Assembly (NCBI RefSeq): GCF_022482365.1
Contig: NZ_JAKVPE010000001.1
Coordinates: 2,222,176-2,286,175 of the forward strand
Length of the DNA stretch: 64,000 bases
Origin: Limosilactobacillus sp.
GTDB taxonomy: Bacteria > Bacillota > Bacilli > Lactobacillales > Lactobacillaceae
Direction of reading: 5' to 3'
Made by a program: the position numbers and the translations under genes. Position 1 is the stretch's first letter, and each line of letters starts with the position of its first letter. The notes beneath the pieces are model-generated. The model was not told where the DNA came from. It saw only the letters and a program-made list of their open reading frames with translations, and made no database searches. This document shows positions 34,760-39,596 of the stretch, in pieces.

Positions 34760-34794
34760 AGCATTGAAAATTATTAATGAAGGGTTGGTTGGAT

Positions 34795-35532
34795 ATGGAT
34801 TCTAAGAAAGAAAATTATTTCGTTTGGTTAGTTAATCAGTTAAAGGGTTGGCCAGTGCAGAATTACTGTCTATGGTTTTTCGCGTTTGGTTTTCAATTGT
34901 GCCTGCTAATTGGCGCTAAGGTAACCAGCGTGACAATGATTACATTTATTGGAACACTGCTCGGAACATTATGTGTACTGGCAATTAACGCTACGAAAGC
35001 TATTAACGGTTGGCTAGGCTTAATCAGTGCAGCATGCTTCATTTATGCCGGCTGGTCAGCAAAGAATTATTTGAGTATTTTTGAACAGTTAGCCTATGTG
35101 GCCACGCTTGATATTCCGGTAATTTTTGCCATTCGTTCATGGAACAATGATACAAAGAACCACTTACGAAAATTCGGTGGCAAGCAATGGTTAATCGCGA
35201 TTGCTGGAACGTTACTCGTTTACTTAGTTTCGGGTTACTTAATTGGTCGGTTTACCAATGACCCACGGCCATGGATTGATGCGATTAGTTTTGCTATCAG
35301 TTTAACGGCCGGTGTAATGTGCTTCTTCCGTTACAACAACCAATACTACTGGTGGTTAGCTTCCGGTATTTTCCAATTGATTTTATGGGCGGTCACTTTC
35401 GCACAAGGTGATGCCACACTCGCAATGGCGGTTAATTCACTGATTTATGTGACTAACGATGTTTTAGCCTTCACAGTTTCGCCTTGGTTTAACCGTGGAC
35501 GTAAGCACGATGGATTGGAGGAAATTAAATAA
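34795..35532 (+). CDS. pnuC: PnuC-family nicotinamide riboside/vitamin transporter
   Basis: 245 residues from ATG 34795 (AAGGG at 10 bp); an in-frame ATG at 34777 lacks a ribosome binding site. Seven or so hydrophobic segments and Trp/Tyr/Asn-rich ends (NQLKGWPVQNYCLWFFAFGF, FFRYNNQYYWWLASGIFQ) match PnuC, a SWEET-like fold transporter that takes up nicotinamide riboside for NAD synthesis by facilitated diffusion coupled to phosphorylation. No NadR kinase gene is in the window. It is embedded in the phage early/middle operon, overlapping the next gene by 1 bp, so it is a metabolic cargo gene. Confidence 0.82.
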   Translation: MDSKKENYFVWLVNQLKGWPVQNYCLWFFAFGFQLCLLIGAKVTSVTMITFIGTLLGTLCVLAINATKAINGWLGLISAACFIYAGWSAKNYLSIFEQLAYVATLDIPVIFAIRSWNNDTKNHLRKFGGKQWLIAIAGTLLVYLVSGYLIGRFTNDPRPWIDAISFAISLTAGVMCFFRYNNQYYWWLASGIFQLILWAVTFAQGDATLAMAVNSLIYVTNDVLAFTVSPWFNRGRKHDGLEEIK

Positions 35533-36297: not shown

Positions 36298-36726
36298 GTG
36301 ATTGATGACATTTTCGGGAAATACGACAAGAAAAAAAGCATTGAGGCCGCACGAAAGTGGCTGTCTCAGTACTGGGACTGGAGAGATGAAGCAAGGCTGA
36401 AAAAACCAACGATTGGGTCACCGAGCATGGACGGTCTGCCCACGGGGTCACTATACGATGCCGATTATAAGATTGTCGACTATGTGAACGCTGAACGGGA
36501 GTGGAAGGTCAGAGAAGAGGTCCTAGATTACATTGCCTCCAAGGGCGACGCGCATGTGACCTACAAGCAGATTCTGGATGACCGATTTGTTCATCATCAC
36601 TGGTCAGTAACGGCCGTCAGAATGAAACTGGGGCTGTCTGAGCGGACGTTCTATGACTACCAGAATGAAGCGCTTTGGGAAGCAGCGAAGATCATTCCAG
36701 ATGATCATGTTCGAGTAAGTAAATGA
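36298..36726 (+). CDS. ArpU-family late transcription activator
   Basis: 142 residues from GTG 36298 (AAGGGGTG upstream). A C-terminal sigma-region-4-like helix-turn-helix (HHHWSVTAVRMKLGLSERTF, YDYQNEALWEAA) typifies ArpU/RinA-like regulators, which in Gram-positive phages switch on packaging and structural genes. The N-terminal half (YDKKKSIEAARKWLSQYWDW) is also typical. It is the last gene before the 11-bp phased repeats and the structured RNA region, so those repeats are its best candidate binding site. Confidence 0.85.
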   Translation: MIDDIFGKYDKKKSIEAARKWLSQYWDWRDEARLKKPTIGSPSMDGLPTGSLYDADYKIVDYVNAEREWKVREEVLDYIASKGDAHVTYKQILDDRFVHHHWSVTAVRMKLGLSERTFYDYQNEALWEAAKIIPDDHVRVSK

Positions 36727-36728
36727 AG

Positions 36729-36794
36729 TCTGCAGTTTTTCTGCAGTAAATCTGCAGGAATTCTGCAGTAAACCTGCAGGAAAAGCAGGGTAAA
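36729..36794. repeat. Six tandem 11-bp repeats, five with CTGCAG, abutting a -10 box
   Basis: CTGCAG starts at 36730, 36741, 36752, 36763 and 36774, exactly 11 bp apart; a sixth degenerate unit (AGCAGGGTAAA) ends at 36794. The unit is about YCTGCAGKAAW. One repeat per helical turn puts every palindrome on the same face of DNA. The array starts 3 bp after the ArpU-type gene and ends 6 bp before TATATT, occupying the place of a -35 and upstream activator sites. Confidence 0.9.
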
Positions 36795-36800
36795 CGGGAT

Positions 36801-36806
36801 TATATT
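36801..36806 (+). promoter_or_regulatory. Putative activator-dependent late promoter -10
   Basis: TATATT at 36801-36806 with no -35 hexamer; the phased repeats lie directly upstream. Transcription would start near 36813 and enter the structured non-coding region. Confidence 0.45.
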
Positions 36807-37271
36807 GGTATCGTCGAAAGATTATCAATTGCGACATACCCGAAAACGTGACCAGAGCAAGTCCTTAAACTACTTACTCCCAAAATAAACTAACAGCGCT
36901 AGACGTCTGACGTATATTCACAGCAACTCAGGTCTAGCGCAAGCGGCGGGGAGCCGGTAACCAAGCCGACGAACGTGGTGGCAGATGACCATACCCCCGC
37001 ATTGAGACTATCGATGGGACATTCTTGATGAATCCGATGTAAGAATTCGACCTCCTTTCAAGAGATTTCAAACAACGTAAATATGATGAGCGTCAACCAT
37101 AACAATACCTCAACGTGCCGCTCATGATAGTCTCAGGCACAGCCGTGCTAAGGCAGAAGAATCCGTGATCTCATTCAACGGCTAGAGGATCACACTATCA
37201 GGACACCAGTACTGCCCAAGGAGATGGCGGAAAACATCGACCGTAAGCAGAGACGAGGATCCTGATTATAT

Positions 37272-37360
37272 GCTGACGTAGCCCTAGGCCCTGTGGTAGG
37301 GCACCCAAGTTTTACAACAGCATGTGTCTTGGGAAGGCGGTTCGATTCCGTCCGTCAGCA
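37272..37360 (+). other. tRNA-like fold A within the structured RNA
   Basis: 7-bp acceptor-like stem GCTGACG/CGTCAGC followed by A; D-like arm GCCC...GGGC; anticodon-like stem CCCAAG/CTTGGG with an 18-nt loop instead of 7; 2-nt variable region; T-arm GGCGG TTCGATT CCGTC. It cannot decode as a normal tRNA in this fold. Confidence 0.6.
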
Positions 37361-37450
37361 TTAGCAAGGCTAGAATAAAGATCCACCTTTGAGAGAAAGA
37401 GCGGTAGATACTCTACGGAGCCTGCCGCGGGGTGGGCGCCTTGCAATTAT

Positions 37451-37522
37451 TGCGGAGTGGCCAAGTTGGCAAGGCAGCGGCTTTTGGCGCCGTGACCACT
37501 GGTTCGAGTCCAGTCCCCGCAA
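37451..37522 (+). tRNA. tRNA-Gln (TTG) embedded in the structured RNA
   Basis: 72 nt. Acceptor TGCGGAG/CCCCGCA (one A-C mismatch), D-arm GCC/GGC with AAGTTGGCAA loop, anticodon stem GCGGC/GCCGT with 7-nt loop TTTTGGC (anticodon TTG), T-arm ACTGG TTCGAGT CCAGT, discriminator A. CCA is not encoded. The G37 is unusual for tRNA-Gln, so identity is less certain than the fold. Confidence 0.75.
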
Positions 37523-37556
37523 TTAGCTTGCAAATCTTCACGGACCTCGCAAGCAC

Positions 37557-37630
37557 GCTAATGGTCCTCGGTAGGGCACGGTTTTATCTACCTTCCGCGC
37601 ACAGCTCAGGTTCGACTCCTGGCCCTTAGC
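37557..37630 (+). other. tRNA-like fold B within the structured RNA
   Basis: Acceptor-like GCTAATG/CCTTAGC (one mismatch), very short D-like arm, anticodon-like stem GCACGG/CCGCGC with a 13-nt loop, T-arm TCAGG TTCGACT CCTGG. More degenerate than folds A and C. Confidence 0.45.
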
Positions 37631-37633
37631 TTT

Positions 37634-37717
37634 TGGGTAGTAGATCAACGGCAGATCCGATAGCGTGTACACGTCAAACAGAGAGCTATCATGACGGTCC
37701 GACTCCGTCCTACCCAC
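37634..37717 (+). other. tRNA-like fold C within the structured RNA
   Basis: Perfect acceptor-like stem TGGGTAG/CTACCCA, TA at positions 8-9, D-arm GATC AACGGCA GATC, anticodon-like stem GATAGC/GCTATC with a 20-nt loop, 2-nt variable region, perfect T-arm GACGG TCCGACT CCGTC. Same architecture as fold A. Confidence 0.6.
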
Positions 37718-37857
37718 TTCAAGGCGTCGCCTACTTTACAAACGTTAATGGAAAGGAAGGTGTAGAAAGCCTACTCTCGAGTTAACACTTTCGCCTTGAA
37801 CGAGCAGCTCGTGTCATTTCAATAGTGGTTCAAAATTACGACTGCTCATATCAATCC

Positions 37858-37884
37858 GCGTCTAGCTTCGGCTGGACGCTTTTT
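37858..37884 (+). terminator. Strong terminator ending the structured RNA region
   Basis: GCGTCTAGC and GCTGGACGC pair (one G-U) around the stable TTCG tetraloop, followed by TTTTT. Confidence 0.92.
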
Positions 37885-37936
37885 AGATAGCTCGTTAGAT
37901 AGCTGAATATAGCTGTAGATAGTAGGAGGAACGCAT

Positions 37937-38329: not shown

Positions 38330-38521
38330 ATGCCATGGAAACCCGCTAAGATGATTCGCTTCTTGAAGAAAAATGGATTCGTTGAGGTCCCAAAACAAGG
38401 CGGCCACAGGAGATTCTATAATCCAGACAATGGGCGACTAACTGAGGTGCCGATGCACAATAAGGAGCTTCGTCCAGGAACTGAACGAGCAATTCTAGAA
38501 GAAGCGGGATTAAAGAAGTAA
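38330..38521 (+). CDS. hicA: HicA toxin (mRNA interferase)
   Basis: 63 residues, the full YcfA/HicA fold: KMIRFLKKNGFVEVPKQGGH then RRFYNPDNGRLTEVPMHNKE. The catalytic His is His26 in GGHRRF. HicA cleaves mRNA on the ribosome until neutralised by HicB. AAAGGAGG precedes the ATG. Toxin-first order is typical of hicAB. Confidence 0.93.
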   Translation: MPWKPAKMIRFLKKNGFVEVPKQGGHRRFYNPDNGRLTEVPMHNKELRPGTERAILEEAGLKK

Positions 38522-38578
38522 CCTTCAAAAGCAAACGGACTGAACAAGCCCGCTTGTTTGGCATATCAAAAGAACGCT

Positions 38579-38968
38579 ATGAAACAAGAAATTTTAGCCT
38601 ATCCTGTAATTCTGACTGAATATAACGATGATGGTCATTATTATGTTGTAACCTCACCAAATATTAAAGGAATGGTAACCGATGGTGATACGATTGCCGA
38701 AGCACTATTCCATGCAGAAGATGCTATGGCTACCATGTTAGATGGCACTGACTATCCTGATGTTCAAGACCCAAAGTCATGGCAGCTTAAAGATAATCAA
38801 CAGGTGTCTTGGGTTACCGTTAATATGACCAAGTGGAAAAATAGGTATGGTAAAACTGTTCGTCGGAACATTAGCATTCCGGAAGGCCTTAATAATTGGG
38901 CCAAAGAAAACAAGATTAATGTGTCTCAAGTGACTACAAATGCGTTACGAGAAATGCAGGAAGCATAA
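38579..38968 (+). CDS. hicB: HicB antitoxin
   Basis: 129 residues from ATG 38579; an in-frame TTG at 38558 is an alternative. N-terminal partially degraded RNase H fold (YPVILTEYNDDGHYYVVTSP, FHAEDAMATML) and C-terminal ribbon-helix-helix/Arc-type DNA-binding part (RRNISIPEGLNNWAKENKIN). It binds HicA and the operator at 38271. The gap to hicA is 57 bp, long for a toxin-antitoxin pair. Confidence 0.9.
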   Translation: MKQEILAYPVILTEYNDDGHYYVVTSPNIKGMVTDGDTIAEALFHAEDAMATMLDGTDYPDVQDPKSWQLKDNQQVSWVTVNMTKWKNRYGKTVRRNISIPEGLNNWAKENKINVSQVTTNALREMQEA

Positions 38969-39041: not shown

Positions 39042-39596
39042 ATGAGATTGACAGCAAAGCAACGGCTATTCGCCGATGAATATATCAAAAGTGGCAACGC
39101 CACACAGTCCGCAATTAAGGCTGGGTATTCGCCTAGAACGGTTCGCTCGATTGGGCAGGAGAACCTGACAAAACCTGACATCAAAGCCTATATTGACGCC
39201 AAAATGGCCGAGATTGAGTCACACAAGATTGCGGACGCCAAAGAGGTGTTGCAGTTCTACACTCGGGTGTTACGAAAAGAAGAAACCGAGCCTGAGAAGC
39301 TCATGGACGATGATGGTTCGGAACACTTCTACGAACGGGAGCCGTCGCTGAAGGATCGACTTACCGCTGCCAAAGAGCTCATGAAACGGTACCCACTCAG
39401 TGATCCGTTGGTCAAAGAACAGCTTCGCAAGATTAGAGCGGAAGCTGAGCTCACTGAACATAAGAGCAAACTTTTTGAAGGCGGGCAGGGCAACCTAACT
39501 AAGATTGTATTTAGCGACGACTTGAAGCCAGACGTTGAGGACGACACGGACCAGAAAGGGGATGAGAGCGATGGAACAGACACTAAGCCTGAGTAA
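39042..39596 (+). CDS. terS: Terminase small subunit
   Basis: 184 residues. The N-terminal helix-turn-helix (LTAKQRLFADEYIKSGNATQ, SAIKAGYSPRTVRSIGQENL) recognises the packaging site; a coiled middle and acidic C-terminus follow, as in the Terminase_2 family. It overlaps the large subunit gene by 26 bp. Confidence 0.94.
   Translation: MRLTAKQRLFADEYIKSGNATQSAIKAGYSPRTVRSIGQENLTKPDIKAYIDAKMAEIESHKIADAKEVLQFYTRVLRKEETEPEKLMDDDGSEHFYEREPSLKDRLTAAKELMKRYPLSDPLVKEQLRKIRAEAELTEHKSKLFEGGQGNLTKIVFSDDLKPDVEDDTDQKGDESDGTDTKPE

Follow-up and report, generated by a model that had tools for sequence, protein, structure and literature searches.

The stretch of DNA analysed here (the window; 64,000 nt, positions 2,222,176-2,286,175 of a 2.34-Mb single-contig Limosilactobacillus genome) includes a prophage in which a non-coding stretch of about 1.08 kb, at 36807-37884, sits between a late transcriptional activator gene and the terminase genes. 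The original prediction had seen in this stretch a giant structured RNA of the GOLLD or ROOL kind, with a new class of ornate RNA in the late region as its fallback. The best reading of the sequence is that 36807-37884 (+ strand) encodes an independent non-coding RNA, about 1.05 kb long, presumably transcribed in the lytic phase and running from a conserved 5′ start to the T-run of a terminator. Two features had been overlooked: the RNA is built as a mosaic from modules that can be exchanged, and one of these modules corresponds to the RNA that precedes AbiF genes.

The open reading frame (ORF) upstream of the RNA, at 36298-36726 (+), matches phrog_248 in PHROGs (E = 4.1e-24), which bears out the predicted position directly after a late activator; Pfam gave no match for this ORF, and we take it to be an activator of the ArpU type. 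Five CTGCAG-N5 iterons with an exact 11-nt period are located at the 3′ end of the gene (36730-36784, +; first bases at 36730, 36741, 36752, 36763 and 36774), and are probably the binding sites of the activator. Relatives of the locus keep the 11-nt period with different repeat-unit sequences, and the top periodicity lag in the 75 nt upstream was 11 or 22 nt in 12 of 13 loci, the window included, and 21 nt in the remaining locus (L040). A -10-like box, TATATT (36801-36806, +), at a place where relatives have a TATTAT-like box, marks a probable late promoter. The element GGTATCGTCGAAAG begins directly 3′ of this box at 36807, the 5′ end is similar in relatives, and the late transcript would start at the GGTATTGTCGAA element. 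On the other side, Pfam identifies the terminase small subunit gene (terS) at 39042-39596 and the large subunit gene from 39535. Pfam also places a HicA toxin (38330-38521) and a HicB-like antitoxin (38558-38968) between the RNA and the terminase genes, a position that looks like a cargo hotspot because relatives have other ORFs there. Upstream of the activator in the prophage region lies a nicotinamide mononucleotide transporter (34777-35532; Pfam, E = 5.9e-30), which is possible NAD-salvage cargo.

As had been predicted, no plausible gene covers the stretch: the 12 ORFs of at least 30 aa that touch it are 36-77 aa long, are found on both strands and in several cases overlap tRNAs, and coding potential was rejected on the basis of these ORFs and of modular indels between relatives. 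The abundance of stems was likewise borne out, since the 1 kb from 36893 to 37892 folds 3.3 standard deviations below 20 dinucleotide shuffles, none of which was as low. Global minimum-energy folds of whole RNAs gave tangled domains and were excluded from the structure evidence. The expected long-range stem is present, with 9 bp formed between GAGACTATC (37004-37012) and GATAGTCTC (37126-37134), and an intrinsic terminator with a 9-bp stem, the predicted TTCG loop and a T-run was found at 37858-37884 (+). An embedded tRNA had also been foreseen, and the tRNA is there, but ARAGORN calls two of them, Gln (TTG) and Thr (TGT), instead of one.

Read from the 5′ end, with every element on the + strand, the RNA begins with a hairpin motif, GAGCAAGTCCTTAAACTACTTACTC (36855-36879), that by eye is like the leader motif of a ROOL locus (L049), and a stem-loop GCGCTAGAC/GTCTAGCGC (36896-36940) supported by fold and sequence. 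These are followed by module B (36946-37000), a branched element GGTAACCAAGCCG with the outer stem GCGGGG/CCCCGC. Compensatory variation in relatives supports this module, the outer stem being GTGGA/TCCAC, GTGAA/TTCAC, GCGTAA/TTACGC, GCGGAA/TTCCGC or GCGGGG/CCCCGC; we quote stem sequences and not counts here because MAFFT misregistered alignments A2-A4 for the L004 type. Module C1a (37004-37134) consists of the long-range stem around a variable insert, the segment at 37117-37193 matches the Rfam family Lacto-phage-1 (RF03004) and forms an H-type pseudoknot (GAAT/ATTC with GTGATC/GATCAC) supported by covariation, and module C1c (37197-37266) is closed by ATCAGGA/TCCTGAT around an inner hairpin GATG/CATC. 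The first tRNA-like domain (37270-37361) has an acceptor, a T-arm and an anticodon arm with an oversized loop, and no CCA; a tmRNA row over it is weak (16.7 bits against a gathering score of 47). The AbiF-antitoxin-like module (37364-37444), which also occurs in a viral contig (L102), is closed by GCAAGGC/GCCTTGC, has a fold z-score of -3.4 and contains the core hairpin GCGGTAG AUA CUC UACG GAG C CTGCCGC (37401-37428), the Abi_2-leader motif. Next come tRNA-Gln (TTG) at 37450-37523, called by ARAGORN and by Rfam at 53.3 bits and with no encoded CCA, a small hairpin GCTTGC...GCAAGC (37526-37554) seen in the sequence, a second tRNA-like domain of the GGTCCTCGGTAGGGCA type (37557-37630) whose seed recurs in L004, L038, L042 and others, and the tRNA-Thr (TGT) called by ARAGORN at 37634-37717, which falls below Rfam gathering reporting. 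The RNA is completed by module J (37718-37800), closed by TTCAAGGCG/CGCCTTGAA, module M (37802-37847), closed by GAGCAG/CTGCTC, and the terminator. Both tRNA-like domains are left uncalled by ARAGORN, yet each keeps a canonical T-arm and acceptor.

Relatives of this RNA were gathered mainly through patterns built on module B, which is a bias of the collection. The module B pattern was found in 16 viral contigs, and a second pattern in 10 stretches of named genomes, nine of them Limosilactobacillus (two being the same strain) and one an uncultured Lactobacillus. Limosilactobacillus reuteri phage LR1, whose record gives ATCC PTA 6475 as its origin, has a homologous, unannotated stretch in the same place, and a L. 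avistercoris record contains the same RNA. A core covariance model, R1, was built from 15 sequences, the window among them, so that the 122.5 bits scored by the window are given by construction; under the stricter filters it matched 15 of 50 Limosilactobacillus genomes at 17 places and 6 of 330 genomes from 40 genera of the family, all six being Limosilactobacillus. Module B was present upstream within one change at 10 of the 17 places, and at five of the remaining seven (L051, L052, L056, L064 and L066) another element takes its place. Two core copies in one genome (L050 and L065, G181) stand without the 5′ part of the RNA, and their left flank looks like unrelated coding DNA. With the whole RNA of L038 as query, matches were obtained in 18 of 47 Limosilactobacillus genomes; the activator protein as query returned one locus, and a search of plasmids returned nothing similar to the window RNA or to the leader RNA of the AbiF-type locus L002 described below. 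The pattern TAGTCTC...TCARCGGCT gave three matches in viral contigs (L043-L045) that were judged to be chance and dropped, and a pattern for module D matched 10 of 201 genomes, one exactly and nine with three mismatches that were taken as chance.

The original prediction had named conservation of the stems in related prophages among its tests, and the stems proved to be both conserved and covarying. In the alignment of the roughly 400-nt 5′ core (15 sequences, 26 named pairs), 93.1% of the cells are paired compared with 86.1% after shuffling, and double changes number 25 against 6.5 in shuffles, neither value being reached by any of 500 shuffles; further pair types do not stand out from chance (16 against 14.3, reached by 75 of 500). 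Unaided, RNAalifold returned 34 core pairs, 14 of them with changes on both sides. Alignment A1 omits L017, L038 and L042, which have no C1c module, and all RNAs of the C2 type; L039, L007, L013, L020 and L036 were dropped before the counts as duplicates or truncated, and the periodicity and strict tRNA-like counts also omit L049. The Lacto-phage-1 part of the core is an H-type pseudoknot in which GAGT/ACTC is crossed by GTAATC/GATTAC, or elsewhere by GTGATC/GATCAC or GCAATC/GATTGC, and L102 seems by eye to keep it with other letters (GAAGC/GCTTC and GCAGCT/AGCTGC). The window matches this family with 41.6 bits (E = 1.7e-5), under the gathering score of 50, and its relative L004 gives a full match of 94.4 bits. 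Besides tRNA, this 81-nt piece is all that Rfam covers, under one tenth of the RNA. Lacto-phage-1 corresponds to an 81-nt segment of the core, and the Rfam structure line returned with the match lacks the second pseudoknot stem; no paper naming the family was found in the literature searched, most subscription papers lying outside it.

The RNA varies between phages by exchange of whole modules. On the 3′ side of module B stands either C1, with Lacto-phage-1, or an unrelated C2, in each case between near-identical flanking modules, while further modules come and go; 3′ of the core, tRNAs, tRNA-like domains and hairpins are swapped between phages at fixed positions. We chose the module seeds ourselves, and those that are short (J, O and C2) produce spurious rows as well. 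The tRNA-like domains keep the acceptor and the T-arm; for the remainder, some have just one arm and others an anticodon arm that is enlarged or abnormal, and none of the domains inspected encodes CCA. When 5 of 5 T-stem and 7 of 7 acceptor pairs were demanded, 19 such domains were found in 26 RNAs, spread over 14 of them, and 30 dinucleotide shuffles of the full collection contained none; with relaxed criteria the count was 49 in 24 RNAs and took in some obvious false positives.

The AbiF-type hairpin was recognised through a self-search of the genome, in which 37394-37431 matched 755186-755223 (38 nt, 89% identity, E = 7.2e-7; E = 5.0e-8 with the module alone as query). The latter site is directly upstream of two Abi_2 (AbiF/AbiD family) pieces with Pfam E-values of 2.2e-19 and 0.0045, the second being below the curated cut-off, and PADLOC calls the first piece AbiD. 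At this locus (L002 1500-2552, own genome from about 755185) the Abi_2 leader RNA is intact and the coding sequence lies in two frames. The exact 16-mer ATACTCTACGGAGCCT occurs at seven places in 6 of 388 genomes of the family: directly before Abi_2 ORFs at three (own genome, L117, L118), in late-slot phage RNAs at two (the window and L116), and at two chromosomal places without Abi_2 (L119, L121). L068 and L119 carry an AbiF-type leader RNA with a terminator-like hairpin and no Abi_2 gene, and L068 keeps what looks like a remnant of an abiF start.

An exact 18-mer was found in five viral contigs. In L104, two tandem hairpin copies, each with a terminator-like hairpin, precede a 319-aa Abi_2 ORF (Pfam) that matches an Abi family protein in the PDB (8vz6, E = 2.6e-7). 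The hairpin lies just before a terminase gene (Pfam) in L101, behind a phrog_248 activator in L102, behind an ORF that by eye looks ArpU-like in L103 (Pfam gives HTH_24 only), and in a tRNA array with 13 ARAGORN calls in L105. When three Abi_2 proteins were used in tblastn, none was found in the window or in the examined stretches of L101 (13.3 of 35.2 kb), L102 (6.3 of 39.1 kb), L103 (10.5 of 38.3 kb) and L105 (14.3 of 24.0 kb), so that four of the five viral contigs have the 18-mer in a late-region (three) or tRNA-array (one) RNA with no Abi_2 in the stretch examined. L116 and L103 seem to represent one phage type, so the independent cases are fewer than these rows. The window itself supplied the motif used in these searches, and variants escape a search with exact 16- to 18-mers; the matches in viral contigs are trusted because of their paired stems.

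The window, L002 and L118 share the hairpin fold (((((((...(((....))).))))))), and the outer stem is shorter or interrupted in L102, L103 and L105. The loop is identical between host and phage copies. Across 13 host and phage copies the stem is 93.1% paired compared with 84.6%, with a covariation score of 0.321 compared with 0.129, and neither value was reached in 500 shuffles; before another Abi_2 gene (L123) CUC/GAG is replaced by CCC/GGG. Abi_2 is present in 19 of 47 Limosilactobacillus genomes, and by eye four further recurrent types of Abi_2 leader were seen in the genus (L124/L127/L128, L125/L141, L131/L132 and L140/L144). In its loop and in the register of its stem, the window hairpin agrees with the RNAs that immediately precede Abi_2 genes, its own genome included, as in AbiF antitoxin RNAs (AbiFr, RCd22, RF03085). 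Unlike these it has no adjoining toxin gene and lies inside a phage late RNA, which is consistent with a mimic or a relic and not with a complete system.

Taken at about even odds, our interpretation is that this late modular RNA carries a copy of the AbiF antitoxin that would act as a decoy and silence AbiF during lytic growth. An activator-dependent late promoter would drive the RNA in the lytic phase, as a string of folded exchangeable modules made up of the roughly 400-nt core followed by tRNAs, tRNA-like domains and hairpins. The module at 37364-37444 would be a copy of an AbiF antitoxin RNA which, on induction, would present its hairpin in trans to AbiF-type RNases of the host; these would bind it and stay silent, the infection would not be aborted, and the phage would benefit. 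The acceptor and T-arm halves of the tRNA-like domains are probable processing points for RNase P and RNase Z that would release the modules, and the tRNA modules may replace or decoy cleaved tRNAs. In Clostridioides difficile, the abiF-motif RNA RCd22 is reported to bind AbiF and thereby neutralise it, both in cis and in trans, with stem-breaking mutants failing and compensated mutants working (PMC12373285), and AbiF is described as a single-strand RNase that is silenced by AbiFr (PMC12737573). Because RCd22 binds AbiF and AbiFr silences it, a late RNA with this hairpin is expected to keep AbiF silent.

Escape from a type III system by RNA mimicry has been described in phages: the pseudo-ToxI of phage TE is reported to be a phage RNA that mimics a type III antitoxin against abortive infection, although it addresses another toxin family and arose in escape mutants, unlike the window module, which stands in a late RNA (PMC5086642). 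The nearest report is of an abiF sRNA in the tRNA-rich cyanophage S-CREM1, where the available part of the source gives it as an Rfam hit and does not tie it to neutralisation of AbiF (PMC9964418). Within the literature searched, most subscription papers lying outside it, we found no report of a phage RNA that counters AbiF. A DNA region of the lactococcal phage sk1 is reportedly protective against AbiF.

Several observations weigh against the decoy. The Rfam abiF model (RF03085) matches neither the window nor the Abi_2-linked copies tested (L002 and L104), so the link between the hairpin and AbiF rests on position and sequence. Among 29 related sequences gathered by other means the hairpin occurs only in the window, and a recount of 32 sequences adds only L102 and L103, both found through the motif itself; the family as a whole therefore cannot have anti-AbiF activity as its role. 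For two other Abi_2-leader motifs, none of the five places in viral contigs was in an array, and at four of these five an Abi_2-like ORF follows by eye (in L154 the motif falls within a coding region and is probably there by chance). The minimum-energy folds of L101 and L104 differ in register from those of the other copies, and the pairs changed on both sides, 4 against 2.4, were reached by 44 of 500 shuffles. Lastly, the own-genome abiF with the closest leader is in two frames and may be dead.

A first alternative, which we consider rather unlikely, is that the RNA is an architectural ornate RNA that acts like ROOL or GOLLD, oligomeric and perhaps enclosing tRNAs, without being homologous to them, and that the AbiF-like hairpin is incidental cargo. 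GOLLD and ROOL are reported to form nanocages, and tRNAs can occupy the GOLLD linker (PMC12286853). The setting of ROOL and GOLLD is reproduced in the window, with a prophage, an activator upstream, terminase downstream and tRNAs inside the RNA; the core is pseudoknotted; and like ROOL it is a large structured prophage RNA associated with tRNAs. The closest parallel is L049, from another genus of the same family. Its phrog_248 activator comes first, and then, in order, a minimal tRNA-like element, the motif GGGTAAGTCAGAAACTGCC, ROOL at 1501-2035, four tRNAs, hairpins and an ORF resembling terS (the tRNA-like element, the motif and this ORF having been read by eye); GGGTAAGTCAGAAACTGCC resembles the 5′ hairpin of the window-type RNAs. 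This activator-to-terminase slot was seen in one of four ROOL loci, the other three being without such a setting in the stretch examined. In L049 the minimal tRNA-like element, with acceptor and T-arm by eye (1437-1513), lies directly before ROOL and a tRNA-Lys directly after it, which suggests that tRNA processing could release ROOL there. GOLLD resembles the window RNA as a phage RNA near or containing tRNAs, and its level is reported to rise during lysis (PMC12286853).

The resemblance lies in the setting and not in the sequence. When 36780-37900 was scanned with cmscan up to E = 10, the rows returned were tRNA, Lacto-phage-1, weak tmRNA, tRNA-Sec and microRNA, with no match to ROOL (RF03087) or GOLLD (RF02032), nor did GOLLD appear at gathering across the window. 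The ROOL model matched 4 of 151 genomes of the family, one of them Limosilactobacillus, and thus works; the GOLLD model matched none of 101 family genomes, a search that had no positive control. In the reverse direction, R1 found no match in the four ROOL loci fetched (E ≤ 5). Membership in GOLLD or ROOL was rejected on the scans with their two models. Within the limits of what a sequence can show, the fallback, a new class of ornate RNA, is supported. In addition, the modules of the window RNA are exchanged as separate stems, which is unlike one global fold.

About as doubtful is a phage tRNA island of decaying tRNAs and structured spacers, in which the hairpin would be a relic of an AbiF system once carried. 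The two tRNAs called in the window, the tRNA array of L105 and the presence of Abi_2 genes in prophage contigs (L104 by Pfam; L149-L151 and L153 by eye) speak for such an origin. The hairpin is not plainly decaying, however, because its stems are kept by compensation in the phage copies; neither the window nor the examined stretches of L101, L102, L103 and L105 show any trace of Abi_2; and the acceptor and T-arm halves of the tRNA-like domains are kept while the remainder varies. A cis-acting leader element of the late operon, serving antitermination or DNA packaging near terS, would fit the location between the late activator and the terminase genes, but is quite improbable given that the RNA ends in an intrinsic terminator, that HicAB separates it from terS in the window and that a much shorter RNA stands at a similar place in L103. 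Divergent membership in GOLLD or ROOL has only the setting of the RNA in its favour, and the scans described above, of which the one for GOLLD lacked a positive control, make it the least credible proposal of all.

The decoy reading can be extended, more tentatively, to the whole molecule. We would guess that the remaining modules are also countermeasures, and it is possible, if doubtful, that the late RNA is an anti-defence array, cut by tRNA enzymes and reshuffled between prophages in an arms race, with each module mimicking the RNA that serves a different RNA-centred defence as partner or substrate. The defences so mimicked could conceivably be AbiF antitoxins, other type III antitoxins and tRNA-cutting nucleases.

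Judged from its sequence, the window RNA is a new, modular RNA that is related to the giant phage RNAs by type and is not their homologue. In these phages, the 81-nt sRNA family that Rfam lists as Lacto-phage-1 is part of a structured, pseudoknotted region on the kilobase scale. A module with a recognisable partner offers a testable job for at least part of a giant phage RNA of the kind that includes GOLLD and ROOL, the candidate job being neutralisation of an abortive-infection RNase; the AbiF lineage has been proposed as ancestral to Cas13 (PMC12737573). If the decoy reading is true, the non-coding parts and tRNA islands of phage genomes ought to be screened for antitoxin mimics, as phage genes are searched for anti-CRISPR proteins; if the array reading is true, ROOL would become a candidate for this role, as would other ornate phage RNAs found in the same slot.

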